Assembly (NCBI RefSeq): GCF_014640075.1
Contig: NZ_BMGG01000015.1
Span: forward strand, 1,060-44,573
Length of the DNA stretch: 43,514 nt
Direction of reading: 5' to 3'
Origin: Chelatococcus reniformis
GTDB taxonomy: Bacteria; Pseudomonadota; Alphaproteobacteria; Rhizobiales; Beijerinckiaceae
A program made the position numbers and the translations under genes. Below, one piece after another: positions 16,164 to 31,832 of the stretch. Positions within the stretch are counted from its first letter, which is position 1. Each line of letters opens with the position of its first letter. Under the pieces are notes generated by a model that was given only the letters and a program-made list of their open reading frames with translations, searched no databases and was not told where the DNA came from.

Positions 16164-16951
16164 AGGGAGTCCTGCTGGGGTGCGGGGCGATAGCCCAGCC
16201 TCTCCGATATTCGCTGCGCACAAGCGATGACCTTGCGCGCCAGATCGCCCTCTGGTTTGGCATCCGAAGCCGCCCCTGGCTTGACAAGCGCTATGGCCAA
16301 CGCAACGGTCCCGTCCTGTTCAAAAGCTGGCGCACCGAGAGCTATTACGCCGGGCGTGGTCGCGCCCACGTTGCTGGCGACTCCAAGCCGCCGAACTTCG
16401 CTGACGTCGCGCTCCAAGGCCGACAGTGACGGAGGATGTTGCTGGCCGCCGAACCGATGGCTCTCAAATTTTAGCGCGGCCCGTACAACTGAACGGGGCA
16501 TATAGGCAGCAAACACGCGCCCGGTCGCGGTTGTCGACAGAGAGAGTACGGTTCCAGGCCTCAGCACAACATGCAGAGGATAGTCAGCCTCTATGACAGA
16601 AACGGCTGCGGGACCTAAATTGCCCCAAACCGAAATGGCGCCGGAATGATCGGCGCCACTGCAAAGCTTCCGGACCTCCTCGTTTGCGATTCGTAACGGA
16701 TCTAACCGCTGAAGCGCTGCTAGTCCAATGTGCAACGCTTGCGGACCTAGATCGTATCTCCCGGAGTCCGGATCTTGTTCGACAATCCGCAACCTGCCGA
16801 AGCTTACCAAGTATGGATGCGCCTTTGCGGGCGTCATCCCTGCCTCACGCGCTAAGTCCTTCAGCGTCATCGCCTTCCGGCTTCTGGCGAGCGCGAGCAA
16901 GAGCTCTCCACCTATCTCGAGTGACTGAATTCTCCGTTGTCCACGTTCCAT
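16160..16951 (-). CDS. IclR-family transcriptional regulator
   Basis: The product is 263 residues from the ATG at 16951 (MERGQRRIQSLEIGGELLLALA), the normal IclR length; the longer open frame upstream includes operator DNA and is unlikely. The N-terminal winged helix-turn-helix is KAMTLKDLAREAGMTPAKAHPYLVSFGRLRIVEQD (about 25-60) followed by YDLGPQALHIGLAAL. The C-terminal effector domain includes SVWGNLGPAAVSVIEADYPLHVVLRPGTVLSLSTTATGRVFAAY and GVIALGAPAFEQDGTVALAIAL. IclR proteins bind palindromes and respond to catabolic intermediates. It is divergent from the reductase gene, with candidate operators between them (16979-16999, 17038-17070). The stop TAG is part of the CTAG at the IS border. 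Confidence 0.88.
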   Translation of the reverse strand: MERGQRRIQSLEIGGELLLALARSRKAMTLKDLAREAGMTPAKAHPYLVSFGRLRIVEQDPDSGRYDLGPQALHIGLAALQRLDPLRIANEEVRKLCSGADHSGAISVWGNLGPAAVSVIEADYPLHVVLRPGTVLSLSTTATGRVFAAYMPRSVVRAALKFESHRFGGQQHPPSLSALERDVSEVRRLGVASNVGATTPGVIALGAPAFEQDGTVALAIALVKPGAASDAKPEGDLARKVIACAQRISERLGYRPAPQQDSL

Positions 16952-16978
16952 CGGTAACCCAAAGCGCGATCGAGGGAG

Positions 16979-16999
16979 GGCGCACTGTATCAGTGCGCC
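16979..16999. promoter_or_regulatory. 21-base perfect palindrome before iclR
   Basis: Arms GGCGCACTG (16979-16987) and CAGTGCGCC (16991-16999) around TAT. It lies 28 to 48 bases upstream of the iclR ATG on the minus strand, a typical position for autoregulation. A 9+3+9 perfect palindrome is very unlikely by chance. It differs from the CCATTGG-type sites, so it may be bound by another protein or by IclR with different affinity. Confidence 0.6.
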
Positions 17000-17037
17000 G
17001 GCGCTGTCGCCAAGCCTCAGCCATCGCTTGACGCATT

Positions 17038-17070
17038 TCCGCCATTGGCGGACGTGTTGTCCATTGACAA
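17038..17070. promoter_or_regulatory. operator pair between iclR and the reductase gene
   Basis: TCCGCC-ATT-GGCGGA at 17038-17052 is identical to the site at 14431-14445. A second, weaker dyad, TTGTC-CATT-GACAA (17057-17070), shares the CCATTG core and lies 19 bases away, repeating the tandem layout seen before the monooxygenase gene. Between divergent genes, it could control iclR and the plus-strand catabolic unit. Confidence 0.55.
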
Positions 17071-17485
17071 ATTTTCTCGCTGCCCGATTATGGGTGGACG
17101 GGACGCGGCTATGTCGGCCAGGGGGTTCTACCCAAGGTCGGCTCAACCGGGTTCTCGCCGTCTGCATTCGAGGGCCGGCTCAGTCCCACGCCCGATCGGC
17201 CGCGATCGAAGAATGTGAACGATAGTTACCTGATGCTCGCGAGACGGGAGCTTTGCTGACAGAATTGTGGTGCCCCAAGGCGGATCAGACTTTGCTTGCC
17301 AGGATGTCGGCATATGAGACGTAGCCACACGGCAAGCGCCGTCGACGAAGGGATGCGGATCCGTGGGCGCGGCGCAATCAGGCGGATGGCGGGATCCAGG
17401 TTGCGCGAGCAGTCGATGATTAGCAAACGCCCCTTGCGTCGACCGAGCGTCCCGTCAGGAGTGCTTAGACCGAACTGAGAATGAT
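17071..17485. other. leader of the plus-strand catabolic unit, no gene recognised
   Basis: About 415 bases between the operators and the reductase start. Short frames here have no family resemblance. No convincing -35/-10 pair or riboswitch fold was recognised. It presumably contains the promoter of the plus-strand unit. Confidence 0.35.
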
Positions 17486-18547
17486 GTGGAATCCAGTTCC
17501 AGCGTTAGAAGGCGCCGCTTATCCGTGACCATCGACACTGACCTAGGGCTCGATCTTACCGCCCTTCCATCAAACAATCAGGGGCTCCATGCCGACCCGG
17601 ACGAGCTCGATTGGATCGACGCAATTGTCAGCCATGTGCGGGACGAGGCCCTGGGCGTCCGGTCGTTTGAGTTCGCTGCGGCGAGCGACATCCCGTTGCC
17701 AGACTGGCCCCCCGGAGCGCACATCGACATTGAGATCGATGGTGGACGGATTACGCGGCAATTTTCGCTCTGCGGAGCGGCAAATAGCGGTACCTGGACT
17801 GTCGCGGTTCTATACGAGTCCGCTGGCCGGGGTGGATCGGTCTGGATGCATCGAAACGCCGTTCCGAAGGCGCGGCTGAAGGTGCGCGGCCCCCGCAACC
17901 ATTTCCCGCTCCGCGAGGGTGCGCATACCAAGCTGGTCGCAGGCGGAATCGGCATCACGCCGATCATTGCCATGGTGCGAGACCTTGAGGCGCACGGCAG
18001 GAGCTGGGAACTGCTGTATGGCGGACGGCGCCGCGAGACGATGGCATTCTTGGACGAGCTGATGCAATTTGGGCCGAAGGTCATGATCTGCCCGGCAGAC
18101 GAACTCGGCCATCTCAACCTCGACGCCTTTCTCGGCCGCCGGGATCCGGATACTAACGTATATTGCTGCGGACCTGAGCAGCTTCTTGACGCGGTGCAGA
18201 TTTTTGCCCGCGAATGGCCCGACGGCGCCCTGCACCTGGAGCGCTTCCGACCTATTCGGGGCCGGACGTTTGAAGATGATCGCCCCTTCGAGCTTGAACT
18301 CTCGCGCTCCGGCGCAACAGTCACCGTTGCAGCAGGCGAGACCATGGTGGAAGCCGCCGCGCGTATAGGCGTCCATATCCCGACGTCTTGCGGCGAAGGC
18401 ATCTGTGGCACCTGTGTTTGCGACGTCATCGACGGCATGCCTGAGCATCGCGATTCCTTCCTCAGCGACCTCGACCGCAATGAGAATAGGCGGGTCGCTC
18501 CATGCTGTTCGCGCGCCCGGACCAGCAAACTGGCGATCGACTACTAG
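17486..18547 (+). CDS. phthalate-dioxygenase-reductase-like (VanB-type) FMN/NADH/[2Fe-2S] reductase
   Basis: The product is 353 residues from GTG at 17486; the first 40 residues have no family counterpart and later starts (such as GTG at 17526) are possible. Residues about 43-140 form the flavin domain (DWIDAIVSHVRDEALGVRSFEF, then RQFSLCG). About 145-230 is the NADH domain (KLVAGGIGITPIIAMVRDLE, YCCGP). The C-terminal ferredoxin carries Cys302-x4-Cys307-x2-Cys310 and Cys340, the plant-type [2Fe-2S] ligands. Such proteins pass electrons from NADH to an oxygenase. No Rieske oxygenase alpha subunit is encoded here, while a P450 is, so it is probably the P450 partner (inference). It is first in the plus-strand unit. 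Confidence 0.85.
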   Translation: MESSSSVRRRRLSVTIDTDLGLDLTALPSNNQGLHADPDELDWIDAIVSHVRDEALGVRSFEFAAASDIPLPDWPPGAHIDIEIDGGRITRQFSLCGAANSGTWTVAVLYESAGRGGSVWMHRNAVPKARLKVRGPRNHFPLREGAHTKLVAGGIGITPIIAMVRDLEAHGRSWELLYGGRRRETMAFLDELMQFGPKVMICPADELGHLNLDAFLGRRDPDTNVYCCGPEQLLDAVQIFAREWPDGALHLERFRPIRGRTFEDDRPFELELSRSGATVTVAAGETMVEAAARIGVHIPTSCGEGICGTCVCDVIDGMPEHRDSFLSDLDRNENRRVAPCCSRARTSKLAIDY

Positions 18548-18608
18548 GACGGAATGCTCAAGCGGCTTCATCGAAGGATTACTGTCCCGCGATCCGATCA
18601 GAAAATGG

Positions 18609-19385
18609 ATGTCTACAGTGAGTGACGCGACCCGAACCTATATCATTACCGGCGCGGCGGGAGCCATAGGCGGCGCTGCCGTCGAGCGTCTGCTGAGCAA
18701 GGGGGCAAACATACTCGCTACGGATATCAGTCAGCGCCGCCTGGACATTCTCACCGAGCGTATGGCGGGGGGCAGCGGCCGGCTGGCAACCTTTCGAGCG
18801 AACCTCAAGGACGAAGGCGAGGTTAACGCCGCCGTCGCCTGCTGTCTCGAAACCTTCTCGTCCCTACACGGCGTTGCGAATGTCGTCGGCGGCATCGTCG
18901 GAATGGACGCCGAATCTGTGGACCGGCCGCTGAACAGGACTGGCCTTGATTATTTCCGACGGACCTTCGAGCTGAACGTCGATACGGTCTTTCTGATGTG
19001 CCGAGCGGTCGAGCCGCATTTCACCGCGCAGTCCTACGGCAAGATCGTTAATGTCGCTTCTCTTGCCGCTTTCGCGAACCGCAACGAGCAGGGCGATTTC
19101 CCCTACAGCGCTGCTAAAGCGGCCGTGATCGCGCTGACGCACCGGCTGAGCCTTCTTCTCGGTCCAGCGGGGATCCGACTGAACTGCGTCGCTCCGGGAT
19201 TGGTTATGAGCGACCTACCCCAGGAGGTGTTCGATGCCGGCTATGTCGAGCGCCACATAGCCGATACCGCGCTCAAGAACCTTGCGACCGCTCACGACCA
19301 GGCGGAAGCGATCGCCTTCTTTCTCGAACCGCAATCCGACGCGATCACCGGCGAGGTTCTCCGGGTCGCGGCCGGAATGCGTTGA
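18609..19385 (+). CDS. short-chain dehydrogenase/reductase (SDR)
   Basis: The product is 258 residues from ATG at 18609 (GTG at 18618 is an alternative). The cofactor motif TGAAGAIGG is near residue 14, the NAD-binding strand ILATDISQRR follows, then ANVVGGIVG in place of NNAG, and the catalytic Ser-Tyr-Lys in VNVASLAAF and YSAAKAAVIAL (Tyr near 163, Lys near 167). The C-terminus GPAGIRLNCVAPGLV is typical of classical SDRs. It oxidises or reduces a hydroxy/keto group with NAD(P). It lies 61 bases after the reductase and 40 before the first CoA ligase, in the same unit. It could oxidise a P450 product or act on a CoA thioester; the substrate is unknown. Confidence 0.88.
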   Translation: MSTVSDATRTYIITGAAGAIGGAAVERLLSKGANILATDISQRRLDILTERMAGGSGRLATFRANLKDEGEVNAAVACCLETFSSLHGVANVVGGIVGMDAESVDRPLNRTGLDYFRRTFELNVDTVFLMCRAVEPHFTAQSYGKIVNVASLAAFANRNEQGDFPYSAAKAAVIALTHRLSLLLGPAGIRLNCVAPGLVMSDLPQEVFDAGYVERHIADTALKNLATAHDQAEAIAFFLEPQSDAITGEVLRVAAGMR

Positions 19386-19425
19386 TCCGGCCAAACTAGT
19401 TGAGAAGACCTTGAGAAGGGCGAAG

Positions 19426-21000
19426 ATGCTGAGATACGAATTTGATTGTCTGAGCAGTGACATCCTCGTCCACAATGCGCGGGCTTATGCCAACTCCGAT
19501 GCAGTGGTCTGTGAGGATCGTCGACTGTCCTGGAAGGACCTCAATGCACGCGTAAACCGGCTCGCGAATCTGCTGACTACGCGCGGGGTGCACAAGGGCG
19601 ATAAAGTCTGCACGCTGATGTCGAATTCGATAGAGGCTTTCGTCGCTTTTTGGGGCACGATCAAAGCAGGCGCAGTGATCGTGCCGCTGAACCCGATGCT
19701 CGATAAGGATGCCTTCGCACGCCTTGCCGACGCATCGGACGCGGTTGCGATGATGTCGGACGGCCTGAACTACGCCTTAGTCGACGCTGCGCGATCCACG
19801 CTGACGAAGGTGCGGCAAGACTTATATCTCGGATTTGGTTTTGCCGCGCGGGGTTGGGAGGATGGCGAAGCGGCGCTCGATGCGCACTCGGATGCCGAGC
19901 CGTGTGTGCGTATCGGGCCGGAGGATACGATGACGATCATCTATTCCTCGGGCACGACGGGCGAGCCAAAGGGGATCGAGCACACTCACGGGGCGCGGCT
20001 CTACTACTTTCTCGCTTTCTCGCTCTCAACCGAGATCAATCGCAATTCGGTCGCGATCTGCTCGACACCGATCTATGCGACCGGAACCTGGATCACGATG
20101 TTCCCCGCTATTCTGCGGGGTGCGAAGATCGTGCTCCTCAAGAAGTTTACGCCGGAGGACATCCTGCGTGCGATCGAGACTGAGGGCGGGACTCACACCT
20201 TTATGGTGCCTGCACAGTACATCGCCATGCTGCAGGCCGATGGCGGCCGCTATAATCTCTCCTCACTTAAAGTCTTCGTTACGGCCGGCCAACCGCTGCC
20301 GGAAGTGGTTCAGGAGCGACTGCTTAAGTCGTACCCGGGTGTCACGATTCGCGAGGTCTATGGAGCGTCGGAGGGTTATGCGACGATCAGGCTTCCGGAC
20401 GATGTCGGCGAACACGCGCGCAAGTCCGTCGGCAAACCGAATCTTCTCGATGAATTCAGAATCATCGGCGAAGCAGGAAACGAACTGCCCGACGGCGAGA
20501 CGGGCGAGATCGTGGCGTATGGGCCCGGTATTATGAAAGGCTACTACAAGCGAGAGGACCTCACGCGAGCCGCGACATGGATTAGCCCAGGCGGAAGAAC
20601 GTTTGTCCGCTCCGGTGACGCCGGATTTATCGATCAGGATGGCCATCTGCACTATGTCGGCAGGATCAAGGACATGATCAAGTCCGGCGGTATCAATATA
20701 TATGCGATCGACATTGAGGACGTCATCATGCGTCATCCGTCGGTGGAGGAGCTGGCGGTGATCGGCGTGCCGCATCCAAAATGGGGCGAGGCGCCGCTAG
20801 CGATCATTGTGCCGAAGGCGGGCGAGGCGACTGATCCCAACGATATTCGCGAGTGGGCTAACAGCCGGGTCGCCAAATATCAGCGCGTTGCAGCAGTGAT
20901 CTTATGCGAAGATCTGCCGCGTGCCACGTACGGAAAGATTCAAAAGCAGGCGCTGCGGCTGCGGTATGCGGACTTCTTCGGGGCGGAAGCGTTGCTGTGA
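19426..21000 (+). CDS. AMP-forming acyl-CoA synthetase (ACS1)
   Basis: The product is 524 residues from ATG at 19426, with AGAAGGG upstream; the longer open frame runs back over the SDR gene and is rejected. ANL superfamily motifs: P-loop YSSGTTGEPKG (about 174-184), A5-type REVYGASEGYATIR, A7/A8 FVRSGDAGFIDQDGHLHYVGRIKDMIKSGGINIYAIDIE, and A10 LPRATYGKIQKQALR with the catalytic Lys. It activates a carboxylic acid with ATP and CoA in the cytoplasm. With ACS2, thiolase-fold proteins and a thioesterase in the same unit, it belongs to a CoA-dependent degradation route. The exact acid (fatty, aromatic, terpenoid or steroid side chain) cannot be read from the sequence. Confidence 0.88.
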   Translation: MLRYEFDCLSSDILVHNARAYANSDAVVCEDRRLSWKDLNARVNRLANLLTTRGVHKGDKVCTLMSNSIEAFVAFWGTIKAGAVIVPLNPMLDKDAFARLADASDAVAMMSDGLNYALVDAARSTLTKVRQDLYLGFGFAARGWEDGEAALDAHSDAEPCVRIGPEDTMTIIYSSGTTGEPKGIEHTHGARLYYFLAFSLSTEINRNSVAICSTPIYATGTWITMFPAILRGAKIVLLKKFTPEDILRAIETEGGTHTFMVPAQYIAMLQADGGRYNLSSLKVFVTAGQPLPEVVQERLLKSYPGVTIREVYGASEGYATIRLPDDVGEHARKSVGKPNLLDEFRIIGEAGNELPDGETGEIVAYGPGIMKGYYKREDLTRAATWISPGGRTFVRSGDAGFIDQDGHLHYVGRIKDMIKSGGINIYAIDIEDVIMRHPSVEELAVIGVPHPKWGEAPLAIIVPKAGEATDPNDIREWANSRVAKYQRVAAVILCEDLPRATYGKIQKQALRLRYADFFGAEALL

Positions 21001-21076
21001 CGCCCACGCCCGCAAAGCATCTACGGCTTCACGACGTGCTTGCGCCCTTCAGCAAATGAACCCGGGAAATATTCCG

Positions 21077-22675
21077 ATGTCCGATATTCGCGCGTTCGAC
21101 TATGCGACGGTCGTCCGCCGTCAAGCTCGGGAGCGCGGCGATCAAGTGTATATGCGCTTCGAGAACATGAGCTACAGTTTCGGCGACGCGCACCGCTTGA
21201 GCAACAAGATTGCGAATGGATTGCTTCGGCTCGGGCTCGGTAAGGGGGCGGGTGTCGCCCTGCTGCTCGACAATTGCCCCGAAATAGCCTGGTACTACTT
21301 TGGCCTGGGCAAGATCGGCGCTGTGGCGGTGCCCCTGAATACGGCGTCGAAAGGCGAGCTCTTGGCCGGCTATATCAGACGCTCCGAAAGTGCTGCTATC
21401 GTGATCGACGCGGCCTATGTGGGCAAACTTGCAGCACTTAGTCCGGTCGGCATTAATGTCCGGACTTGCATCGTCGTCGGCGAGGCAGATGTAAGTCCGC
21501 TGCGGTACGCCGGGCTAACCGTCGTCCCACACGATCGAGTCATGGAAGCGTCCGACGTGGAGCCGGACGTCAAGGTTCGCTTCAACGATATCGCTTATCT
21601 GTCCTTCACGTCCGGCACGAGTGGCCCATCGAAGGCGAACATATCGACCCATTCGCACGCCCTGTCGATGGCGAAGGCTGTCGCCGACGCCTTCGACTAC
21701 GGTCCCGATGAGGTTATGTATTCCTGCCTTCCGTTGTTCCATGGCAACGCCATGAGGTCGCTCTTCATCCCGATGCTCACGGGCTGCAGCGTTGCGGTCG
21801 GTCGCCGCTTCTCGTCCTCCGGCTTCTTCCCGGACGTCAAGCGATATGCCGCGACACAGTTCAATCTGCTCGGGGCAATGGCCAACATCCTGTGGTCGCT
21901 CCCTGAGAGCGAGGAGGATCGAAGCCACGGCGCCACCAAATGCATGATCATACCTGTGCCGGCTTTTTCTGACGCTTTCAGCCGCCGCTTCGGGGTGCAA
22001 CTCCTGTCGGCCTACGCGCTTACGGACTTCGGCTACGTTTCGTTTCTCAATGCGACCCACCATCCTACCAAGCGGGCTTCGGCTGGCAAGGTGCAGCCGG
22101 ATGTCGAGCTCACCATCCTTGACGACGACGATTTCGAGGTCCCGGGGGGCGAGGTGGGTGAAATTTGCCTGCGTCCCCGGCGTCCCTGGACATCGGCCCA
22201 AGGCTACTTCGGGATGCCCGAAGCAACCGTGATGGCATGGCGCAACCTTTGGTTCCACACCGGTGACCGCGGATACCTCGATGAGGATGGCTTTCTTTAC
22301 TTCGTCGACCGGAAGAAGGACGCCATTCGCCGCCGCGGCGAGAACATCTCCTCATTCGAGGTCGAGCAGATTATTCTTGGCCATCCCGCCATTCTCGACG
22401 TCGCGGTCTTTGCCGTCCAGTCGGAGATGAGCGAGGACGAGGTCATGGCCTCCGTCGTGCTGAAAGAAAACAATGCACTTCGAGAGGAGGAGCTGATCAG
22501 GTACTGCGCCCGCGAGATGGCGTATTATATGGTTCCGCGCTATGTACAGTTCGTCGAATCTCTGCCACGCACATCGACGGCCAAGGTAGAGAAATACAAG
22601 CTGCGCGAGGCGGCCGAGCGCGATATCTCACACGTCTGGGATAGAGAGCGAGCTGGACTAAAAATTGCGAGATAG
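21077..22675 (+). CDS. AMP-forming acyl-CoA synthetase (ACS2), CaiC-like
   Basis: The product is 532 residues from ATG at 21077; ATG at 21056 is an alternative, with no strong ribosome binding site at either. P-loop FTSGTSGPSKA (about 177-187), in which the usual closing Gly is Ala. Further motifs are LLSAYALTDFGYVSFLN, FHTGDRGYLDEDGFLYFVDRKKDAIRRRGENISSFEVEQ and the A10 region LPRTSTAKVEKYKLR, where the usual Gly before the catalytic Lys is Ala. These resemble CaiC-like and crotonobetaine-type ligases. It is clearly different from ACS1, suggesting two acids or two stages are activated. It lies 76 bases after ACS1 and 102 before the P450 in the same unit. Confidence 0.87.
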   Translation: MSDIRAFDYATVVRRQARERGDQVYMRFENMSYSFGDAHRLSNKIANGLLRLGLGKGAGVALLLDNCPEIAWYYFGLGKIGAVAVPLNTASKGELLAGYIRRSESAAIVIDAAYVGKLAALSPVGINVRTCIVVGEADVSPLRYAGLTVVPHDRVMEASDVEPDVKVRFNDIAYLSFTSGTSGPSKANISTHSHALSMAKAVADAFDYGPDEVMYSCLPLFHGNAMRSLFIPMLTGCSVAVGRRFSSSGFFPDVKRYAATQFNLLGAMANILWSLPESEEDRSHGATKCMIIPVPAFSDAFSRRFGVQLLSAYALTDFGYVSFLNATHHPTKRASAGKVQPDVELTILDDDDFEVPGGEVGEICLRPRRPWTSAQGYFGMPEATVMAWRNLWFHTGDRGYLDEDGFLYFVDRKKDAIRRRGENISSFEVEQIILGHPAILDVAVFAVQSEMSEDEVMASVVLKENNALREEELIRYCAREMAYYMVPRYVQFVESLPRTSTAKVEKYKLREAAERDISHVWDRERAGLKIAR

Positions 22676-22777
22676 TTTTCAACTCTCGCGCTCAGCGACC
22701 ATTTTCGGTTGCTCCTGGCCGGCAAGTCCACAACGGAGCACGTGTCTGTGCGCTTGAGGAAAAGAAATGAGGCCCCT

Positions 22778-23998
22778 ATGCCCCCCGTTTTCGACCCCGA
22801 CGATATAGGGATCCGCAGGGACCCGCATGCTTTGTTTGCTCGCCTCCGGGCCGAGGAGCCAGTGCACTGGAGCCCGAAGATGAAGAGCTGGATCGTGACC
22901 GACTTCGCGCTGGCGACCAGAGCCCTGACCGAATTCGAGACATTCACCGCCGAGCGAATGCGGGACCTTGAACCTCGAGTCGCCCCGGAGCGGCGCGGTG
23001 ATCTGCAGCAGCTGATGTACTGGCTGAATCACTGGATGCTCTTTCGTGATCCTCCGCAGCATTCCGAGCTTCGACGCCGTCTTTCCGCAATCCTGAATCC
23101 AAAGGTATTCCTCAACCTGTCGGGTCACGTCAGCTCGGTGATCGATCACCAGTTCGCCGCTATCGAGCGGGCCGCCCCAGTTGAATTCGTCTCGAAGTTC
23201 GCTCACCCGATGCCAGGCTACGTCGTCATGGATATTCTCGGCGTGCCTCGCGACCGCCTGCTGGAGACGAAGGGATACTCAAATGATATGATGCTATTCA
23301 TCGGCGGCTCGCGCAACGCTGATGACAAATATCAAAGAGCCCGCGCCGGAGCGGAGGCGATCGCAGACATCTTCCGTGATGCGATCGCGCGACGCAGGCG
23401 CGGCCGGGACGGGAACGACGTCCTTGGGCTACTTATCAACTCTGAAGTTGATGGCCGCAAGATGTCCGAGGACGAGATCGTCGGGACAATGATGATGCTC
23501 TTGAATGGCGCGCACGATACCACCGCAAATGCGATCTCTAATACTGTGATGCTTCTTGCCGCGCATCCTGGGATCGCGCAGCGCTTGAGGCAACATCCGG
23601 CGCAGCAAACCACCGCGATAGAGGAAATGTTGCGCTACGAAGGGCCGATTCTCTCTGTTGGCCGTCTTGCTGGAAAGGACACTGAGCTTGGAGGCAAGAA
23701 GATCGAAGCCGGGAATCGGATCTACGTCATGCTCGTTGCGGCGAACCGAGACCCGAGCATCTTCGAGGCTCCGGATGAACTTCGCATAGACAGGTCGCCC
23801 AACCCTCATATGGCATTCGGCAAAGGGCAGCACTTCTGTCTTGGGGCGCCGCTGGCGAAGCTAGAGGTGCAGCTGACTGTCAAGCACCTGCTTCAGCGCT
23901 TCGAGCGGATCGAGATCAACACGCCTCCTGAGGACATGCAGTGGCACGACTCGCTGGTCGCGCGGGGACCGATGGCGATGTCGATCACGCTTCAATGA
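22778..23998 (+). CDS. cytochrome P450
   Basis: The product is 406 residues, soluble bacterial type without an N-terminal anchor. The ATG at 22778 has GAGG just before it. Signatures: I-helix NGAHDTTAN (243-251), where the second Gly of the (A/G)GxDT motif is Ala; ExxR in EEMLRY (Glu283, Arg286); and the heme loop FGKGQHFCLG with Cys354 as iron ligand. The sequence MPGYVVMDILGVP and LNHWMLFRDPPQHSELRR are typical of bacterial class I P450s acting on terpenoids, fatty acids and steroids. It hydroxylates C-H bonds with O2 and two electrons, here probably from the reductase at 17486. Its TGA overlaps the ATG of the DUF35 gene. Confidence 0.93.
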   Translation: MPPVFDPDDIGIRRDPHALFARLRAEEPVHWSPKMKSWIVTDFALATRALTEFETFTAERMRDLEPRVAPERRGDLQQLMYWLNHWMLFRDPPQHSELRRRLSAILNPKVFLNLSGHVSSVIDHQFAAIERAAPVEFVSKFAHPMPGYVVMDILGVPRDRLLETKGYSNDMMLFIGGSRNADDKYQRARAGAEAIADIFRDAIARRRRGRDGNDVLGLLINSEVDGRKMSEDEIVGTMMMLLNGAHDTTANAISNTVMLLAAHPGIAQRLRQHPAQQTTAIEEMLRYEGPILSVGRLAGKDTELGGKKIEAGNRIYVMLVAANRDPSIFEAPDELRIDRSPNPHMAFGKGQHFCLGAPLAKLEVQLTVKHLLQRFERIEINTPPEDMQWHDSLVARGPMAMSITLQ

Positions 23999-24423
23999 GC
24001 GATGGCCGGAGAGAGCACGACATGGGCGTCGAACCAAATCCGAACTGGGTCACCAAAGCCTTCTGGGAAGCGGCTGGGCAGCGTAGTCTGATTTACCCGT
24101 GCTGCGACCGCTGCGATAACCGCTTCTTCCCGCCGCGCCCGGCCTGTCCGAAGTGCCTCAGCCTGCAGTGGTCCTGGAAGGACAGCGCTGGCAAGGGCAC
24201 GATTTATAGCGCGGTGACGGTGCACAAGGCGCCCATACCGGACATGGCGACGCCCTACGTGCTGGCTATCGTTACATTGGATGAAGGCGTGCACATGCTC
24301 GCCAACATCGTCGGATGCCGGCCCGCGGCAGCGCAGATCGGGCAGCGTGTCGCGGTAAACTGGGACACGTGCGCGCGCGGCTATACGGTTCCCAATTTTG
24401 AACTCTCGGCTGACCTGTCATGA
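23995..24423 (+). CDS. DUF35 OB-fold/zinc-ribbon protein (DUF35-A), thiolase partner
   Basis: The product is 142 residues. ATG at 23995 overlaps the P450 stop (ATGA); ATG at 24022 is also possible. The zinc ribbon is complete: Cys37-x2-Cys40-x10-Cys51-x2-Cys54 in PCCDRCDNRFFPPRPACPKC. It is followed by the OB-fold domain GTIYSAVTVHKAPIP, YVLAIVTLDEGVHMLANIVG, and IGQRVAVNWD. DUF35 proteins (ChsH2 in steroid side-chain degradation, BbsA in benzylsuccinate degradation) form complexes with thiolase-fold proteins and are needed for their C-C cleavage activity. The TGA overlaps the next ATG by four bases with a thiolase-fold gene, so the two are almost certainly a complex. Partner assignment is strong; the substrate is not known. 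Confidence 0.88.
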   Translation: MSDGRREHDMGVEPNPNWVTKAFWEAAGQRSLIYPCCDRCDNRFFPPRPACPKCLSLQWSWKDSAGKGTIYSAVTVHKAPIPDMATPYVLAIVTLDEGVHMLANIVGCRPAAAQIGQRVAVNWDTCARGYTVPNFELSADLS

Positions 24424-25592
24424 GTCATATCGTCAAAAGCCCGCCTCCCCTTGCCGCGGCGGTTGTCGGCATTCACACCACTCAGCAGGGGATGAGCATC
24501 GACCGTCCTGCCGTTCACCTCGTTCTTGATGCCATTGCAGCGGCCCTCGCCGACGCGGGCATCGACAAATCAGAGGTTGACGGCATCAGCGCTCGTTGGC
24601 CTGGCCCGACCGGAACTGTGATGCTTCCGGGCTCTATCGACTGGGGGGCGCAACTCGGCATTCCGTTGCGCTGGGTCGACGACAGCTATCCGGCCGGTGT
24701 CCCAGCCCTGATGGCGGCGGCGGCGGCCATCACATCTGGCCTATGCAATACCGTCGTCGTCGCCGGCGGCCAATCGCGTACGCGGATTCCCGGCGCGGTC
24801 CTGGAATATACCCGGCCGGATAACGAGTTCACCGCCGTGTTTGGCTCCTATACGCCGGCTCAGTTCGCGCTGGTAGCTCAGCGTTACTTTCATGTCTTTG
24901 GCGCCGACCCGGCGAAGATGGCCGGGATCGCGGCAGCAATCCGGAGTATGGGCAGCATTCGCCCGGGTGCCGCGCTGTTCGGGCGGGGACCCTATGCAGC
25001 CGAAGACATCATGGCCTCGCCGATGATCGTCGAACCATTTCATCTCCTGGAGCTCTGCCTTGCCAGCGAGGGCGCGGTCGCCTACGTGGTCACTTCGCTC
25101 GACCGAGCGAAGGATTGCGCTCGTCGACCCGTGCGGGTGCTCGGCGGTGGGATGGAGTACAAGCGACAACAATATGTCGATCCGCCGCTGTACGATGAGG
25201 CGAAGAACCTCGGCGCCGACGCCATTGCACGCGCCACCGCCATGGCGGGCGTGTCTATCGGGGATATCGACACCTTCCAGCTTTACGACGCCAATGCCTG
25301 GGAGGTCGCCCGGCAGTTCGAGGCCCTCGGCTACTGCGCCGAAGGAGAGGGACTGGATTTCGTTATGGAGCGAGGCGCTGGGCCGGAGGGCCTGGCGATC
25401 AACACCGATGGCGGACTTCTGTCATTTGGCCATCTTGGCTCAAGCGGGCCGACGCTGAAGATCGTCGAAGCAGTAAGACAGCTTCGCGGCGATGCACCGA
25501 CCTCTCAGCGCGAGGGTGCCGAGCTGGCGTTGGCCACCGGAGCGGGCGGCGGAGCGCTCTACTACAACCTCGCCATTCTCGGACGCGCCTGA
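24420..25592 (+). CDS. thiolase-fold protein, SCP2-thiolase/aldolase type (T1)
   Basis: The product is 390 residues, coupled by ATGA to DUF35-A. The thiolase fold is evident: LAAAVVGIHTTQQG at the start, VHLVLDAIAAALADAGIDKSEVDGI, CNTVVVAGGQSRT, and near the C-terminus NTDGGLLSFGHLGSSGPTLKIVEAV (GH motif present) and ATGAGGGALYYNLAIL. The region where the acyl-binding Cys normally sits reads DDSYPAGVPALMAA, and the C-terminal Cys position lies in GAGGG, so both classical cysteines seem absent. This pattern resembles Ltp2-type retro-aldolases that act with a DUF35 partner. I infer a lyase rather than a thiolase. The assignment of the missing cysteines is by eye and needs an alignment. Confidence 0.82.
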   Translation: MSHIVKSPPPLAAAVVGIHTTQQGMSIDRPAVHLVLDAIAAALADAGIDKSEVDGISARWPGPTGTVMLPGSIDWGAQLGIPLRWVDDSYPAGVPALMAAAAAITSGLCNTVVVAGGQSRTRIPGAVLEYTRPDNEFTAVFGSYTPAQFALVAQRYFHVFGADPAKMAGIAAAIRSMGSIRPGAALFGRGPYAAEDIMASPMIVEPFHLLELCLASEGAVAYVVTSLDRAKDCARRPVRVLGGGMEYKRQQYVDPPLYDEAKNLGADAIARATAMAGVSIGDIDTFQLYDANAWEVARQFEALGYCAEGEGLDFVMERGAGPEGLAINTDGGLLSFGHLGSSGPTLKIVEAVRQLRGDAPTSQREGAELALATGAGGGALYYNLAILGRA

Positions 25593-25701
25593 GTAGCGGA
25601 AATACGGCGCTAGCATCGCCTAGCACCTCCAAGGCGAAAGTCGGACGCTAGCAGTTATACACTAACGTAACAATTCGTTCGGGAAAGGTTTCGTCAACTC
25701 A

Positions 25702-26136
25702 ATGCCGATATCCGCGTGCCCACCGCAGACCCTTCAGCAAACCGAACTTGACGAACTGGCGATTCCCTCGCCGTTCCGTGACATGTTGGGAGTGCATGTC
25801 GCGGAATGGGAGCAGGGCCGCTGCGCCGTCGAGCTTGACGTGAGACCGGACCTTGTCAACTTTTCCGGTGCCATCGCCGGCCCGGTTGTCGCTGCCATGG
25901 TCGATATCGCGGGTGGCCTCGCCGGCTGCTACAGCCCCGACCGCGACAATCGCATCACAGCGGTGACGCTCAGCGTCACGATCGCTTTCATGGGCACCGT
26001 AAAAAGCGGGCGGGTCCGGGCCGTGGCAGTCAAGCAGGGCGGCGGCCGACGCGTCTATACAGCGACTGTACATGTCTATGGTGAGGACGGTCACATGATC
26101 AGCACCGGCCAAGGGACTTACCGGTATGTTTCCTAA
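25702..26136 (+). CDS. PaaI-family hotdog-fold thioesterase
   Basis: The product is 144 residues, the normal length. It has the hotdog pattern: FRDMLGVHVAEWEQGRCAVEL, then LVNFSGAIAGPVVAAMVDIAGGLAG (the hot-dog helix), VTLSVTIAFMGTVKSGRVRAVAVKQGG and VYTATVHVYGEDGHMISTGQGTYR. The usual HGG at the helix start is AGP here, while the acidic residue in MVD is kept, so the active-site geometry may differ. It hydrolyses acyl-CoA thioesters in the cytoplasm, perhaps releasing CoA from dead-end intermediates. It follows a 109-base gap after T1, the largest gap in the unit, and overlaps the next thiolase-fold gene by 11 bases. Confidence 0.85.
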   Translation: MPISACPPQTLQQTELDELAIPSPFRDMLGVHVAEWEQGRCAVELDVRPDLVNFSGAIAGPVVAAMVDIAGGLAGCYSPDRDNRITAVTLSVTIAFMGTVKSGRVRAVAVKQGGGRRVYTATVHVYGEDGHMISTGQGTYRYVS

Positions 26137-27247
26137 CATCGCGTCCGAGAAGATCTACGTCATTGGGCTGGCCATGCACGCGGCCGTCCACGCCGAAAGA
26201 GGCTTGCGCCTGGAGGAGATGGTCTTTGAGGTGTCCCATCGCGCTCTGCGCAACGCCGGGATCAGCCGCAAGCAACTTGACAACGTCGTAATTGCCGCGT
26301 GCGACGAGCTGGACGGGCGCCCGATATCCAGCATGCTGATGGCTGCTCCGGCTGGCGGCTACCTTGTAGACGAAATCAAGGTGACCGAGTCTGGCCTGAA
26401 TGGCCTGGCTGCCAGCGTCGCGCGCCTTCGCTCGGGTGAATTCCAGGCTGGGCTCGTCGTGAGCTGGTGCAAGAGCTCAAAGACGGACATCAGCGCGGTC
26501 ATGCGGCTTCGCAATGATCCGTTCTACTACCGCTCGCTGAATATCGGCGGCCTGGTTTCGGACGGAATGTTAGCCCAAGCCGTTGCGAGCGAGTTCGCGG
26601 TGACCCGCGATGAGATCGCACACCGCGTCAGAGCGGCTTATGCGCGGGGAGCGTCAAACCCCCGCGGCCTTGGCTCGCCCGTCCCAACCGTCGACGTCGT
26701 TGAAAATGGGGCCTTTACGGCGCTGCCAATGCGCGAAACGGACCTCGCACCGCTCAGCGACGGTGCGGTGACGCTCGTCCTCTGCACCGAGAGGTTTCTA
26801 GCTGACAACAGGCAGTGCGTGCCGCTCGCTACCTTGTCCGGTATCGGCTGGGCGTCCGATTCCTACCTGCTGGGGATGCATCGCCTAAGGAGTTTCACAG
26901 CCGCGCGCAACGCTTGGGAGATGGCCCTGGCGCAGTCGGGCCTGTCGGCAGACGAACTCGACTTCGCCGAGCTGGATACGCCGTCCGCTTGGCATGAAGC
27001 GGCCCTGGCACGAATTTTTGGGCTGATTGATGCCCAGATCTCCCCCTCGGGCAGCAACTTCTCCCAGAACCCGTTCTTCTGCATGGGCCTGATCAACGCG
27101 GCCGAGGCCGTTCTAAAACTATCCGGTGCGGGCGGCGAGCCGGCGAACGCGCGCCCCCGGCGCGCCGCGGCACACGGATGCCACGGATTTGCGCAGCAGG
27201 GCCATGTGGTCGCGATATTCGAGGCGATAGGGGGCCAAGTCAATTGA
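26126..27247 (+). CDS. thiolase-fold protein (T2)
   Basis: The product is 373 residues; its ATG lies inside the end of the thioesterase gene. Fold signatures: KIYVIGLAMHAAVHAER, EVSHRALRNAGISRKQLDNVVIAACDE, TESGLNGLAASVARLRSGEFQAGLVV, and a C-terminus AAHGCHGFAQQGHVVAIFE. In the loop where thiolases have the nucleophilic Cys (ACSSGL-like) this protein has TESGLNGL, without Cys. The usual GGxxxxGH stretch is replaced by FSQNPFFCMGLINAAEAVLKL. It is therefore a divergent thiolase-fold subunit. It overlaps T3 by four bases, and T2/T3 may form a heteromer with DUF35-B. Chemistry is not established; retro-aldol or retro-Claisen cleavage of a CoA ester is inferred. Confidence 0.8.
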   Translation: MFPNIASEKIYVIGLAMHAAVHAERGLRLEEMVFEVSHRALRNAGISRKQLDNVVIAACDELDGRPISSMLMAAPAGGYLVDEIKVTESGLNGLAASVARLRSGEFQAGLVVSWCKSSKTDISAVMRLRNDPFYYRSLNIGGLVSDGMLAQAVASEFAVTRDEIAHRVRAAYARGASNPRGLGSPVPTVDVVENGAFTALPMRETDLAPLSDGAVTLVLCTERFLADNRQCVPLATLSGIGWASDSYLLGMHRLRSFTAARNAWEMALAQSGLSADELDFAELDTPSAWHEAALARIFGLIDAQISPSGSNFSQNPFFCMGLINAAEAVLKLSGAGGEPANARPRRAAAHGCHGFAQQGHVVAIFEAIGGQVN

Positions 27248-28440
27248 GCACACAAGACGTCGCCGTTCTCGGCACTTATCAGAGCGATTTCCGCACCCAC
27301 GATATGTCGCAAACCTACGTCGAGCAGGTGCAGAAAGCGGCGATCGGAGCACACCGGGACGCCGGCATGTGTGTTGACGATGTGGACGCTGCGGTGATTT
27401 CGCTGGCGCCCACATTCTTCCTTGGGGTCGCCGATGCGGACCGTTGGGCGATCGACAACATCGTCTGCGCGGGCAAGCCAGTGCTTCGGGTCCATACCGG
27501 CGGTGCGACGGGCGGGTCGGCTGTCCACATAGCCTATTCGCTCATTCAATCCCGCATGGCGCGGTCGGTCCTGATCGTCGGCGCCGAACGGATTGCTGAA
27601 ACACCCGATGCACAGAAGGTGTTGAACCTGATTTTCGACGCCTTCTATGAGCGGGACATGCCGCTTTCGACCAACACCCTCGTGGCTTTGCGGGCGTGCG
27701 CGTACCTTCATCGCCACGGCTTCACGCAGGAAGATCTCGCGCGCGTCGTCGTGCGGGCCCGGCGCAATGCGATGAAGAATCCGCACGCTCATCTCAAGGG
27801 TGATATCACCGTTGACGACGTGATGGCGTCGAAGATGATCGCCTACCCGCTCAAGCTGTTCGACATCTGTCCAAGATCGTCTGGCTGCGCGGCCATGATC
27901 CTGGGTAACATGGATATGGCCAAGCGTTACCGGACTAATCCGGCCTTTGTGAACGGAATTGGCTCGCTGAGTGACACCTATTGGATGGGCGACCGCACGG
28001 GTCCGACGGCCGATACCGATCTGGTTGAATACGATCTGATCCGGATGGCCGCGACGACCGCCTATAGGCGCGCGGGTGTAACCGATCCATTGAAGCAAAT
28101 CCAGGTAGCCGAGTTTTACGATCCCTACAGCGTCAATACACCGATTTCCTTGGAGCAGGCGGGCTTCTGTAGCCGCGGCACTGCGCTGAGGCTCGAAAAG
28201 GACGGCTACTGGGATCGCGATACAGGCGCCGTAGCCGTCAATCCGTCCGGCGGCACGCTTTGCACGAACCCTATTGCGATCACGGGTCTGGTCAGGTGCA
28301 TCGATGCCGCCACTCAAGTCATGGGGACGGCTGGCGATATGCAGGTCAGGAACGTGCGGCGCGCGCTCGCGACAGCCAGCGGTGGCACGGCACAGTTCTA
28401 CAACTGTACAGTCTTTGGAGCGGAGCCAACTCATGGATAA
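27244..28440 (+). CDS. thiolase-fold protein (T3)
   Basis: The product is 398 residues from TTG at 27244, overlapping the T2 stop (TTGA); the longer frame from 27178 would run deep into T2 and is rejected. Signatures: VAVLGTYQSDFRTHDMSQTYVEQVQKAAIGAHRDAG-type start, VHTGGATGGSAVHIAYSLIQSRMARSVLIVGAE in the first nucleophile region, where the Cys is replaced by a Gly/Ala/Thr-rich loop, and NPSGGTLCTNPIAITGLVR near the C-terminus, where GH is replaced by NP. ASGGTAQFYNCTVFG ends the fold. It resembles thiolase-family subunits in BbsAB-like systems. It overlaps the DUF35-B gene by eight bases, which supports a T2/T3/DUF35-B complex. Confidence 0.8.
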   Translation: MSTQDVAVLGTYQSDFRTHDMSQTYVEQVQKAAIGAHRDAGMCVDDVDAAVISLAPTFFLGVADADRWAIDNIVCAGKPVLRVHTGGATGGSAVHIAYSLIQSRMARSVLIVGAERIAETPDAQKVLNLIFDAFYERDMPLSTNTLVALRACAYLHRHGFTQEDLARVVVRARRNAMKNPHAHLKGDITVDDVMASKMIAYPLKLFDICPRSSGCAAMILGNMDMAKRYRTNPAFVNGIGSLSDTYWMGDRTGPTADTDLVEYDLIRMAATTAYRRAGVTDPLKQIQVAEFYDPYSVNTPISLEQAGFCSRGTALRLEKDGYWDRDTGAVAVNPSGGTLCTNPIAITGLVRCIDAATQVMGTAGDMQVRNVRRALATASGGTAQFYNCTVFGAEPTHG

Positions 28441-28903
28441 CGGGCTTGCGGAAGCCGGACACGACGTGATGTCCGACGAGATCACGCTGCGCTATGACTA
28501 CGCTCTGGGCAAGGTCGCCGGGCGCTTCATGCGCGGGCTGAAGGAAGGCAAGATCCTTGCCACGAGGTGTTCCAAGTCCGGGCTCACCTATCTCCCGCCC
28601 CGCGCCTACTGCGAGCGCAGCTTCGAGCCGTGTGACGAATGGGTCGAGGCGGGTTCGCAGGGCGTTGTCGAGGCCTCGACCATTGTCGTGCGCGGCTACG
28701 AAGGTAAGCGAAAAGCGCCCGTCGCGATTGCGCTTGTGCGGCTTGATGGCGTGGATTCGGCGATCGCGAACTATGTCGACGGCCTCGATCTGTCCGATCC
28801 TGCGTCGGCGATGACGCGTATCGCGCCCGGAACACGATTGAGGGTGACATTCGCTGCCGAGCGCGAGGGCCGGATCACCGACTTTTCGTTTCTGCCGCTC
28901 TAG
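28433..28903 (+). CDS. DUF35 OB-fold protein with degenerate zinc ribbon (DUF35-B)
   Basis: The product is 156 residues; ATG at 28433 overlaps the T3 stop. The layout FMRGLKEGKILATRCSKSG...PPRAYCERSF matches the zinc-ribbon spacing of DUF35-A. Only the first Cys of each CxxC pair is kept (Cys46 and Cys60); the second positions are Ser49 and Ser63. Another Cys (67) follows. Zinc binding is thus doubtful. The OB-fold part is recognisable (GVVEASTIVVRGYEGKRKAPVAIALVRLDGVDSAIANYV, GTRLRVTFAAEREGRITDFSF; given here in pieces of the same domain). Partner of T2/T3 by context. It is the last enzyme gene of the unit, followed by the solute-binding protein after 87 bases. Confidence 0.82.
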   Translation: MDNGLAEAGHDVMSDEITLRYDYALGKVAGRFMRGLKEGKILATRCSKSGLTYLPPRAYCERSFEPCDEWVEAGSQGVVEASTIVVRGYEGKRKAPVAIALVRLDGVDSAIANYVDGLDLSDPASAMTRIAPGTRLRVTFAAEREGRITDFSFLPL

Positions 28904-28990
28904 ACCGACGGCGAGGGCATACGTGCAAAACAATAAAGAATATCGGCTCTCCGGCACATGTACGACCAGCCTTTAAGGAGGGGATGAGTT

Positions 28991-30223
28991 ATGCGCAATA
29001 TCGAACTTTCTCGCCTCGCGACTTTTGCGGGTTGCCTAGCATTCGCGGTTTCGTTCAACGGACTCGCGCATGCTCAGAAAAAATACGATCCGGGAGCGAA
29101 CGATACAGAGATAAAGATTGGAAACATTTGCGCCTACAGTGGTCCGGCTTCGGCCTACGCGACTGTTTGCAGGATCGAGGCGGCCTACTTCAGGAAAATC
29201 AACGACGAGGGGGGCATCAACGGCCGCAAGATCAACTTCATCTCCTACGACGATGCCTATAGCCCGCCCAAAGCTGTTGAGCAGGCTAGGAAGCTCGTCG
29301 AAGGCGACGAGGTGCTGCTTATTTTCAACCCCGTGGGTACCGCGTCCAACGCGGCAATTCAGAAGTACATGAACGCCAAGAAGGTGCCGCAACTTTTTCC
29401 TGCGTCGGGCGCGACCAAGTGGGGAAATCCGAAGGCGTATCCCTGGACGATGGGTTGGCAGCCAACCTTCCGGAACGAAGGAATCATCTACGCTAAGATG
29501 ATACTGCGCGACCAGCCCAACGCGAAGGTCGGCATTCTCTACCAGAACGACGACTTGGGAAAAGACTACCTGGCCGGCGTCAAAGACGGCTTGGGCGATA
29601 AAGCCAAGGCGATGATTGTGGCCGAGGCGTCCTACGAGCTAGCTGATGCAACGATCGACTCGCCTTTGCTCAGAATCAAGGCGGCTGGCGCTGATGTGCT
29701 GCTCAACTTCACGACTTCGAAGTTCGCGGTTCAGGCGATACGCAAGGTCGCCGAGATGACCTGGAAGCCAGTGCATTACCTCGCGAGCGTGTCACAGTCG
29801 GTCGGAGGCGTGATGAAACCGGCGGGACTGGAGAGCGGAAAGGGCATTATAAGTAGCTATTACCTAAAGGATCCAACAGACCCCGCCTGGAATCGTAATG
29901 ACGCCATGATAAAATGGAGCACATTTCTAGATAAGTACTTCCCAGAAGCCGACCGCTCCAATGTATTGAATGTGTATGGTTATGCGGTCGCGCAGACCTT
30001 AGTCTATGTGCTCAGACAATCTGGTGACGATCTCACACGCGAGAATATCATGAAGCAGGCGGCCAATATCAAGGACCTCCGTCTGCAGACGCTCCTGCCC
30101 GGCATTATCATCGGCACGAGTCCGACCGACTATTATCCAATCAAGGCGCTACAGCCGCTGCGCTTCGACGGCGAAAAGTGGGTGCCGTTTGGATCAGTTC
30201 TCGTCGGGGCAACCGAGAAGTAG
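28991..30223 (+). CDS. ABC-type solute-binding protein, LivJ type (SBP2)
   Basis: The product is 410 residues with a very good ribosome binding site (AAGGAGGGG about nine bases before ATG). Signal peptide: MRNIELSRLATFAGCLAFAV then AHAQ. Mature start KYDPGANDTEIKIGNICAYSGPASAYA, closely parallel to SBP1 (KYDPGASDTDIKIG...). Further shared segments: INDEGGINGRKINFISYDDAYSPPKAVEQARKLVE, KVGILYQNDDLGKDYLAGVKDG, and TRENIMKQAANIKDL. It is periplasmic and delivers a carboxylate or related compound to a Liv-type permease, whose genes are absent here. A strong separate ribosome binding site suggests high expression. The two SBPs flank the catabolic region and may bind the substrate and a metabolite. 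Confidence 0.92.
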   Translation: MRNIELSRLATFAGCLAFAVSFNGLAHAQKKYDPGANDTEIKIGNICAYSGPASAYATVCRIEAAYFRKINDEGGINGRKINFISYDDAYSPPKAVEQARKLVEGDEVLLIFNPVGTASNAAIQKYMNAKKVPQLFPASGATKWGNPKAYPWTMGWQPTFRNEGIIYAKMILRDQPNAKVGILYQNDDLGKDYLAGVKDGLGDKAKAMIVAEASYELADATIDSPLLRIKAAGADVLLNFTTSKFAVQAIRKVAEMTWKPVHYLASVSQSVGGVMKPAGLESGKGIISSYYLKDPTDPAWNRNDAMIKWSTFLDKYFPEADRSNVLNVYGYAVAQTLVYVLRQSGDDLTRENIMKQAANIKDLRLQTLLPGIIIGTSPTDYYPIKALQPLRFDGEKWVPFGSVLVGATEK

Positions 30224-30394
30224 CCAGCCTTCTGCGACGCGCGTGACTTGCTGGCCGCCCCATCGCGTGCGAGCCACGGCGTTTGGTTCAAGCAGCCGCC
30301 CTTGAGCGGTCAGCGACGTTCGTTGCAAGACTGCGATACTAGGCGTTGATCGCGTAGGGGATTCCGGCGTCTGGCGAATTTGATTCAGGGGCAG

Positions 30395-30414
30395 AGCTAA
30401 GCGGAGGCTTAGCT
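30395..30414. repeat. 8-bp perfect hairpin, possible terminator after SBP2
   Basis: AGCTAAGC-GGAG-GCTTAGCT, a tight tetraloop hairpin 170 bases after the SBP2 stop. No T run follows (TGGTGG), so intrinsic termination is doubtful. Confidence 0.35.
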
Positions 30415-30757: not shown

Positions 30758-30782
30758 CTCCGGCCAACGCTCATGGCCGGAG
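30758..30782. repeat. 8-bp perfect hairpin upstream of luxR
   Basis: CTCCGGCC-N9-GGCCGGAG, very GC-rich, ending 65 bases before the luxR start. It could be a leader structure or a protein site; it has no T run. Confidence 0.35.
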
Positions 30783-30847
30783 GACAACAGCAGCTGTGCC
30801 GAATGATCTGCGCGAGTGCAGACCAATAGCTCGGCCGCGGAGCTTGG

Positions 30848-31778: not shown

Positions 31779-31832
31779 AAATCAAAAGCGCATAGATGGC
31801 TATTTTCGCGCATCGGTAGCACGGAGGACCCG

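Follow-up and report, generated by a model that had tools for sequence, protein, structure and literature searches.

An eleven-gene mosaic unit of Chelatococcus reniformis combines a P450 system with two candidate DUF35/thiolase-fold retro-aldolase modules

A contig of Chelatococcus reniformis (NZ_BMGG01000015.1, assembly GCF_014640075.1) carries on its plus strand an eleven-gene unit, at positions 17486-28903 of the 43,514-nucleotide stretch analyzed here (the window, which is close to the entire contig of 44,573 bases), that brings together a cytochrome P450, two acyl-CoA ligases and two modules of DUF35 and thiolase-fold proteins. The explanation that we favor, with confidence a little above even, is a horizontally acquired catabolic operon that degrades a side chain or ring fragment and in which a branched or alicyclic acid undergoes retro-aldol cleavage. 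As judged from their sequences, both DUF35/thiolase-fold modules may be retro-aldolases for hindered beta-hydroxyacyl-CoAs. One of them, consisting of THLx, THLb and DUF35b, is a fixed module, rare yet conserved from Syntrophaceae to aerobic proteobacteria. The genes of the unit, as assigned with Pfam and NCBIfam, follow one another in this order:

17486-18547, plus strand: PDR-type reductase (Pfam Fer2, a C-terminal 2Fe-2S domain, and NAD-binding domain)
18609-19385, plus strand: short-chain dehydrogenase/reductase (SDR) oxidoreductase (Pfam; the open reading frame opens at 18405, and a start at 18609 or 18618 is likelier)
19426-21000, plus strand: acyl-CoA ligase ACS1 (Pfam AMP-binding, 266 bits; start with ribosome site)
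20966-22675, plus strand: acyl-CoA ligase ACS2, PRK06155-like (AMP-binding; NCBIfam PRK06155, 514 bits versus a cut-off of 722; exact start uncertain)
22778-23998, plus strand: cytochrome P450 (Pfam p450)
24022-24423, plus strand: DUF35a, zinc ribbon and OB fold (Pfam OB_ChsH2_C, zf-ChsH2)
24420-25592, plus strand: THLa, aldolase-like thiolase-fold protein (Pfam Thiolase_C_1; alignments to 6ok1, 9myr, 7pxp and 7yvy)
25702-26136, plus strand: hotdog-fold thioesterase (TIGR00369, 51.3 bits versus a cut-off of 36.6)
26126-27247, plus strand: THLx, degenerate thiolase-fold subunit with a CDExDGR motif (alignment of 15 and two further members; AlphaFold model)
27244-28440, plus strand: THLb, aldolase-like thiolase-fold protein (TTG start by homology; alignments, AlphaFold model)
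28433-28903, plus strand: DUF35b, ChsH2-type (Pfam OB_ChsH2_C, 29.8 bits versus a cut-off of 27.1)

These gene classes, their order and their common strand are the ones described in a sequence-only reading of this DNA, and the short gene overlaps of 4 to 11 bases on which it remarked are real: with the likely starts, overlaps amount to 4 bases for DUF35a/THLa, 11 for hotdog/THLx, 4 for THLx/THLb and 8 for THLb/DUF35b, longer ones in the table of open reading frames being the product of upstream alternative starts. The P450 presents the heme cysteine loop (FGKGQHFCLG, residue 370), the I-helix threonine (GAHDTT, 267) and the ExxR motif (305). Its probable electron donor is the PDR-type reductase, for which no flavin-domain family is listed at 1e-3. 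DUF35a, with cysteine in all four aligned zinc-ribbon positions, is the probable partner of THLa, and DUF35b has a degenerate ribbon with two of the four cysteines, all of which are kept in two Syntrophaceae relatives. The Pfam scores of THLx lie below the gathering cut-offs (25.4 versus 28 bits, 23.1 versus 26.4 bits). The hotdog protein falls slightly under the Pfam 4HBT cut-off (20.2 versus 20.6 bits); its assignment as a hydratase was dropped, since it passes the thioesterase cut-off of TIGR00369.

None of the three thiolase-fold proteins shows the N-terminal nucleophilic cysteine of canonical thiolases. HMMER alignment to solved structures places Y90 of THLa and G109 of THLb at that position, with glycine in 16 of 16 aligned THLb proteins, and T87 of THLx was assigned to it by eye against the motif. 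What THLa and THLb do present is a Tyr-Asp pair (Y289-D290 and Y314-D315, respectively), aligned opposite the YD of Ltp2 (6ok1, for THLa) and Sal (9myr, for both), at a site where BbsB (7pxp), 7yvy and 6esq carry HD. The tyrosine shared by Ltp2 and Sal is their catalytic base (PMC12329534, excerpt); this YDxx motif is absent in THLx. Both THLa and THLb also have a DUF35 partner gene beside them, as Ltp2/Sal-type aldolases do, and their active sites, on these alignments, look aldolase-like rather than thiolase-like. The GHP-loop histidine is kept in THLa (H338); N364 of THLb lies opposite it in the 6esq alignment, but not in the Sal alignment, and is invariant in 16/16 sequences, as is C362. 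In THLx, C59-D60-E61-x-D63-G64-R65, H290 and N315 are invariant across 15/15 sequences, the equivalence of N315 to the GHP-loop histidine being judged by eye. AlphaFold models of THLb and THLx (predicted local distance difference test scores of 77 and 81) both have the thiolase fold. Fold matches of the THLb model are headed by an archaeal thiolase/HMG-CoA synthase (HMGCS) complex (6et9), with a Pyrococcus thiolase second, Ltp2 ninth, Sal 13th and 5m3k 42nd, and those of THLx are led by the Pyrococcus thiolase, the archaeal complex and other thiolases; the BbsAB structures 7pxp/7pyt are among the matches of the THLb/THLx models.

The conservation of the THLx-THLb-DUF35b module was assessed with a THLx pattern derived from a two-sequence alignment, which was scanned against one genome per species in 84,980 species and returned 16 loci (L021-L036). 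Gene order was compared in 13 of these, after leaving out three (L029, L032, L036) with contigs ending inside the module, together with a Simplicispira plasmid and two class genomes. In all 16 loci spanning the region the three genes are adjacent and in the same order, in alpha- and betaproteobacteria, Acidobacteria (with THLb split) and Syntrophaceae. Since CDExDGR formed part of the pattern, its invariance in L021-L036 is partly built in; the motif is also present in L017 (whole-protein search) and L084/L085 (profile search), and remoter THLx relatives (L010, L013, L015) retain only its DGRS part. Across 12 aligned loci, THLx shares 36-55%, THLb 43-74% and DUF35b 41-77% identity with its counterpart in the window, the closest THLb and DUF35b (74% and 77%) being those of Sphingomonas tagetis. 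Three of the loci (L022, L024, L025) are too closely related to count as independent, and the alignments omit L084 and L085 throughout, L028 for THLb and DUF35b (split THLb) and L027 for DUF35b. Distances among the three module proteins correlate at 0.93-0.98 over 13 loci, a value that shared ancestry alone could give. The module is rare: at E<=1e-80, THLx is matched in 2 genomes among the 384 others of the class sample and in none among the 397 others sampled from the phylum, matches at E<=1e-20 in 6 of 297 other genomes of a family sample are remote (25-33% identity), and in the host genome THLx is the sole match at E<=1e-20 (6 of 27 candidates scored). Relatives of THLa at E<=1e-40 are present in 7 of 13 module-bearing genomes, located away from the module.

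Enoyl-CoA hydratase (ECH) and/or acyl-CoA dehydrogenase (ACAD) genes lie near the module in 10 of the 16 loci (L021, L023, L026, L028, L030, L031, L033, L034, L084, L085), a biotin carboxylase gene in three (L023, L030, L031) and a ligase resembling ACS2 (counted from 34% identity upwards, observed range 35-51%) in four (L017, L023, L026, L033). The S. tagetis locus (L021) has as neighbors a P450 (26%), IclR, ECH, CoA-transferase and a ferredoxin-reductase-like gene. Two Syntrophaceae metagenome-assembled genomes (MAGs) place ECH, ACAD and CoA transferase genes (L034) or a mutase of the methylmalonyl-CoA type (L035) near the module, and 2-oxoacid dehydrogenase genes lie upstream of it in L022, whose E1 alpha gene has a 97% similar counterpart in L025. 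The module of Roseovarius amoyensis and that of a Rhodobacteraceae MAG (L030, L031) each adjoin acyl-CoA carboxylase and ACAD genes, placed as if substituting for a step of the HMG-CoA-lyase type. The THLb relative of an Acidobacteria MAG (L028, 11087-12167) extends over two reading frames, through sequencing error or decay. A second DUF35/thiolase pair accompanies the module in L017. The same holds for two operons on Rhodococcus plasmids with a remote version of the module (L058, L059; 29-42% identity), where MaoC, ligase and F420-type luciferase-like monooxygenase (LLM) oxidoreductase genes are present as well; with L017 as the only case among the 16 loci and remote homologues in the other two, conservation of the two-module arrangement was dropped as a candidate.

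The unit as a whole is a mosaic. Clusters on three Rhodococcus plasmids (pROB02, pDK3 and the PSBB011 plasmid; L018-L020) carry PDR, SDR, ACS and P450 genes at 44-53% identity to those of the window (PDR/VanB gene 44-47%, SDR 53%, ACS1-like ligase 48-49%, P450 44%). They differ in having ECH, Rv3169-family and phosphotransferase-like genes, in the order P450, Rv3169-family, ligase, ECH, SDR, phosphotransferase-like, hypothetical and PDR. The annotation also places an ordinary thiolase and an ACAD in their vicinity, and the 25-kb plasmid stretches give no match better than E 0.2 to THLx, THLb, THLa, DUF35a or DUF35b. The titles and abstract openings listed in literature searches held no account of the function of this cluster, and those on the ibuprofen ipf system contributed nothing to the present reading. 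P450 relatives at E<=1e-75 were identified in 24 of 384 other class genomes, at no more than 41% identity, and 15 of the 24 contexts were fetched. No PDR relative is present in these 15, and their SDR/ACS1 matches (25-28%) are generic; in six of them (L061, L062, L063, L064, L067, L068) a distant THLa or THLb match (27-29%) lies near the P450, so that this window is not the only place where a P450 has thiolase-fold genes as neighbors. Within the plasmids and class sample searched (actinobacterial genomes were not), the redox half is shared with Rhodococcus plasmids only. Megablast of the block 16100-31600 against plasmids gave no match, and none of the searches made turned up the complete eleven-gene combination at another locus. 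The nearest PDB sequences to the P450 are diverse, headed by a reconstructed CYP125 ancestor, and a substrate assignment from the P450 was dropped. The sequence-only reading had called the system undescribed and had named conserved synteny as one of its checks. The former stands in a limited sense, in that the block was found nowhere else in these searches and no paper describing the set is among the matches listed (titles, abstract starts); as to the latter, conservation was found for sub-modules, strongly so for one DUF35/thiolase module, and not for the full block.

Beyond the unit, the window contains the following features:

8819-9532 and 14728-16163: genes or remnants of IS5-type transposases, matched best on plasmids of Bosea, Mesorhizobium and Microvirga
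9618-14340, minus strand: iron-containing alcohol dehydrogenase (Fe-ADH), LivK-type binding protein, HSL esterase and LLM, a divergent run beyond the IclR gene (Pfam and NCBIfam)
16160-17167, minus strand: IclR-type regulator, divergent from the unit (Pfam IclR_C 60 bits, HTH_IclR 43 bits)
28991-30223, plus strand: LivK-type ATP-binding cassette (ABC) substrate-binding protein, directly 3' of DUF35b (Pfam Peripla_BP_6)
30848-32471: LuxR/LuxI
34854-43228, minus strand: genes for P-type conjugation, among them TrbG/CagX, TrbL and TrbE-like

The IclR-type protein is the probable local regulator of the unit, and the LivK-type gene next to DUF35b is probably its last gene; L017, L022 and L033 likewise have ABC uptake genes close to the module. 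A link between the minus-strand run at 9618-14340 and the catabolic unit is only suggestive: LLM, HSL esterase and Fe-ADH resemble a ketone-ester-alcohol set, by which a ketone released by retro-aldol cleavage could be processed. The HSL esterase scores 342 bits with the LipP1 model, whose cut-off is 350. Given the transposase genes, LuxR/LuxI and the trb conjugation genes, the unit is probably carried on a mobile element or plasmid fragment. The plasmid records that best cover the trb region are from Indioceanicola, Sphingobium and Niveispirillum, at 78-79% identity. G+C content is 0.55-0.64 at 10-30 kb, lower than in the trb region (0.67-0.69 from 34 kb on), yet similar to that of the first 8 kb (0.61-0.64). 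To the left of the catabolic region, 2783-7514 holds genes for a YflT-type stress protein, an alpha/beta hydrolase and DUF892.

Several characterized systems resemble parts of the unit. The aldolases Ltp2-ChsH2 (6ok1) and Sal-Shy (9myr), which act on steroid side chains, likewise pair a thiolase fold with a DUF35 partner, have Tyr-Asp for His-Asp and lack the nucleophilic cysteine; THLb is 23-27% identical to Ltp2/Sal in structural matches without conserving their second acid residue, and the unit has no fused or adjacent MaoC hydratase. Atf1-ChsH4 of Mycolicibacterium neoaurum shares with the unit an aldolase and a stand-alone DUF35 protein in one operon (PMC10398937, excerpt), but has a known steroid substrate and a single thiolase-fold protein, and is likened here by gene layout, not by sequence. 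Branched sterol side chains are reported to require the aldol-lyases Ltp3/Ltp4 (PMC6273163 and PMC6593523, excerpts), and fadD19, echA19, cyp142, an F420 oxidoreductase, Rv3521, ltp4 and ltp3 bear near-consecutive numbers, a set with P450, ligase and F420 oxidoreductase genes that resembles the surroundings of the module (PMC6429209, excerpt). As far as these excerpts go, Ltp3/Ltp4, which act on C24-branched sterol side chains, are like the module in comprising two adjacent thiolase-fold genes beside a conserved hypothetical gene, Rv3521. The NCBIfam 'lipid-transfer protein' models score below cut-off, PRK07937 with 111 bits for THLx (cut-off 419) and PRK08313 with 300 bits for THLb (cut-off 514), and no sterol context is apparent for the unit. 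THLx/THLb are likened to Ltp4/Ltp3 here by gene layout and were not equated with them outright. We take Rv3521 to be a DUF35 protein, and the two models presumably cover Ltp4 and Ltp3. PhlABC also consists of two thiolase-fold subunits and DUF35, with PhlC very likely acting via Cys88 (PMC6392133, excerpt), and so does the archaeal thiolase/HMGCS/DUF35 complex (5m3k, 6et9). Both form C-C bonds, and Cys88 lacks a counterpart in THLa/THLb, PhlC itself not having been aligned residue by residue. The benzoylsuccinyl-CoA thiolase BbsAB (7pxp) is a DUF35/thiolase-fold pair acting on a CoA ester, but its His-Asp and cysteine are replaced in THLa/THLb, and scores with the NCBIfam BbsA/BbsB equivalogs remain far from the cut-offs (DUF35a 31/250, THLa 83/750, THLb 121/750 bits).

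From the evidence above we infer a reaction, an order of steps, complexes, subunit roles and a substrate class. The P450, fed by the PDR-type reductase, would hydroxylate a branched or alicyclic substrate, the SDR and other dehydrogenases would carry the product towards an acid, and ACS1/ACS2 would form CoA thioesters. Chromosomal ACAD and ECH would then perform dehydrogenation and hydration, and two DUF35-bound thiolase-fold enzymes, the two-subunit THLa/DUF35a and the three-subunit THLx/THLb/DUF35b, would cleave hindered beta-hydroxyacyl-CoAs by retro-aldol reaction into a ketone or aldehyde and acetyl- or propionyl-CoA. THLb is the likely catalytic subunit, a role given to it by inference, and THLx may be structural or substrate-shaping. 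A three-subunit complex is plausible by analogy, because PhlABC and HMGCS complexes contain two thiolase-fold proteins and DUF35 (PMC6392133, excerpt). The reading as side-chain or ring-fragment breakdown draws on Ltp3/Ltp4, which serve branched sterol side chains and have a similar gene set (PMC6429209, excerpt). It agrees with the sequence-only reading that the unit is CoA-dependent and encodes C-C lyases of the DUF35/thiolase-fold kind; the active sites of these look like those of aldolases, not thiolases. The substrate suggested in that reading, an alicyclic, terpenoid or steroid-like acid, stands as a candidate, neither confirmed nor contradicted by these results. The further argument that missing ACAD and ECH genes set the pathway apart from beta-oxidation is weak. 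A tblastn search with 12 such queries (1e-10) does find no ACAD, ECH or MaoC relative in the window, but this says little, because the host genome holds 66 ECH matches (65 over cut-off, with a few frames counted in two pieces) and 77 ACAD matches, all of them outside this contig, and because most module relatives have such genes nearby. DUF35/thiolase-fold enzymes are likewise common in the host, with 10 DUF35 and 14 THLb-profile matches, the unit's own included.

Several observations weigh against the retro-aldol operon. The NCBIfam scores of the thiolase-fold proteins are all under curated cut-offs. The second acid (Tyr344 of Ltp2, Cys304 of Sal) is not conserved, with H338 and A291 in THLa and P316 of THLb at the Cys304 position, so THLa/THLb are not simply Ltp2 or Sal. 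Although Tyr is found in 14 and Asp in 12 of 16 aligned THLb proteins, the YD pair is replaced in four, by YA in two Syntrophaceae and by FN in two Rhodococcus relatives. Six loci (L017, L022, L024, L025, L027, L035) have no ECH/ACAD match in the DNA covered, which for L024 is only 5.7 kb, and the cooperation of the block's modules rests on a single locus.

In an unlikely alternative, P450 and PDR-type reductase take the place of ACAD and hydratase: the P450 itself hydroxylates the acid, or its CoA ester, at the tertiary beta carbon, and ACS and aldolase act next. We regard as equally unlikely its more specific version, in which a three-subunit aldolase bearing the CDExDGR pseudo-thiolase THLx cleaves at the tertiary beta-hydroxyl of a branched acid, by-passing acyl-CoA dehydrogenase and hydratase. 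Such a shortcut is consistent with a window that has P450 and PDR genes in place of the ECH/ACAD of most module relatives, and with the ECH of the Rhodococcus PDR/SDR/ACS/P450 cluster having no equivalent here; it is countered by the ECH and ACAD matches elsewhere in the host genome, by S. tagetis, where P450 and ECH occur together near the module, and by the six relatives without an ECH/ACAD match, which also have no P450 match, while the regiochemistry of the P450 is not readable from sequence. Somewhat less probable is a true thiolase module of BbsAB type cleaving a 3-ketoacyl-CoA made by the SDR. The SDR in the unit, the GH-loop histidine H338 of THLa and the presence of BbsA and BbsB among NCBIfam matches and of 7pxp/7pyt among fold matches would fit it, but the nucleophilic cysteine that such an enzyme uses is absent from all three thiolase-fold proteins (in THLx by eye) and the BbsA/B scores fall well short.

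It is doubtful, and more so than the thiolase reading, that the unit is an ad hoc neighborhood on a mobile element, with sub-modules that were acquired independently and serve no common pathway. Mosaic relatives, the transposase genes and the difference in G+C between 10-30 kb and the region from 34 kb point that way; against it, the genes lie on one strand with short overlaps and no insertion is seen within the unit, P450 and reductase form a plausible redox pair, and aldolase genes directly follow ligase and P450 genes. Least probable of all, in our estimate, is a biosynthetic role, in which an acyltransferase or condensing complex of the PhlACB type or of the archaeal HMGCS-thiolase-DUF35 type would produce a secondary metabolite, possibly controlled by LuxR/LuxI. 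It would account for the shared architecture of two thiolase-fold subunits and DUF35 (PMC6392133, excerpt), for 6et9 as top and 5m3k as 42nd fold match of THLb and for the nearby LuxR/LuxI genes. However, Cys88, very likely catalytic in PhlC (PMC6392133, excerpt), is without counterpart here, several module relatives carry ECH, ACAD, CoA transferase or uptake genes, and a Pfam scan of 36 window proteins reveals no polyketide synthase or nonribosomal peptide synthetase gene.

Among the literature matches listed, by title and abstract opening, no biochemical description of the THLx-THLb-DUF35b module was found. If the module is a retro-aldolase for tertiary beta-hydroxyacyl-CoAs, it would represent a general bacterial route past the block that quaternary and tertiary carbons impose in branched and cyclic molecules, and it could then mark such pathways and find use as a biocatalyst for C-C bonds. 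The P450-linked version in C. reniformis would, if this holds, be a compact transferable cassette.

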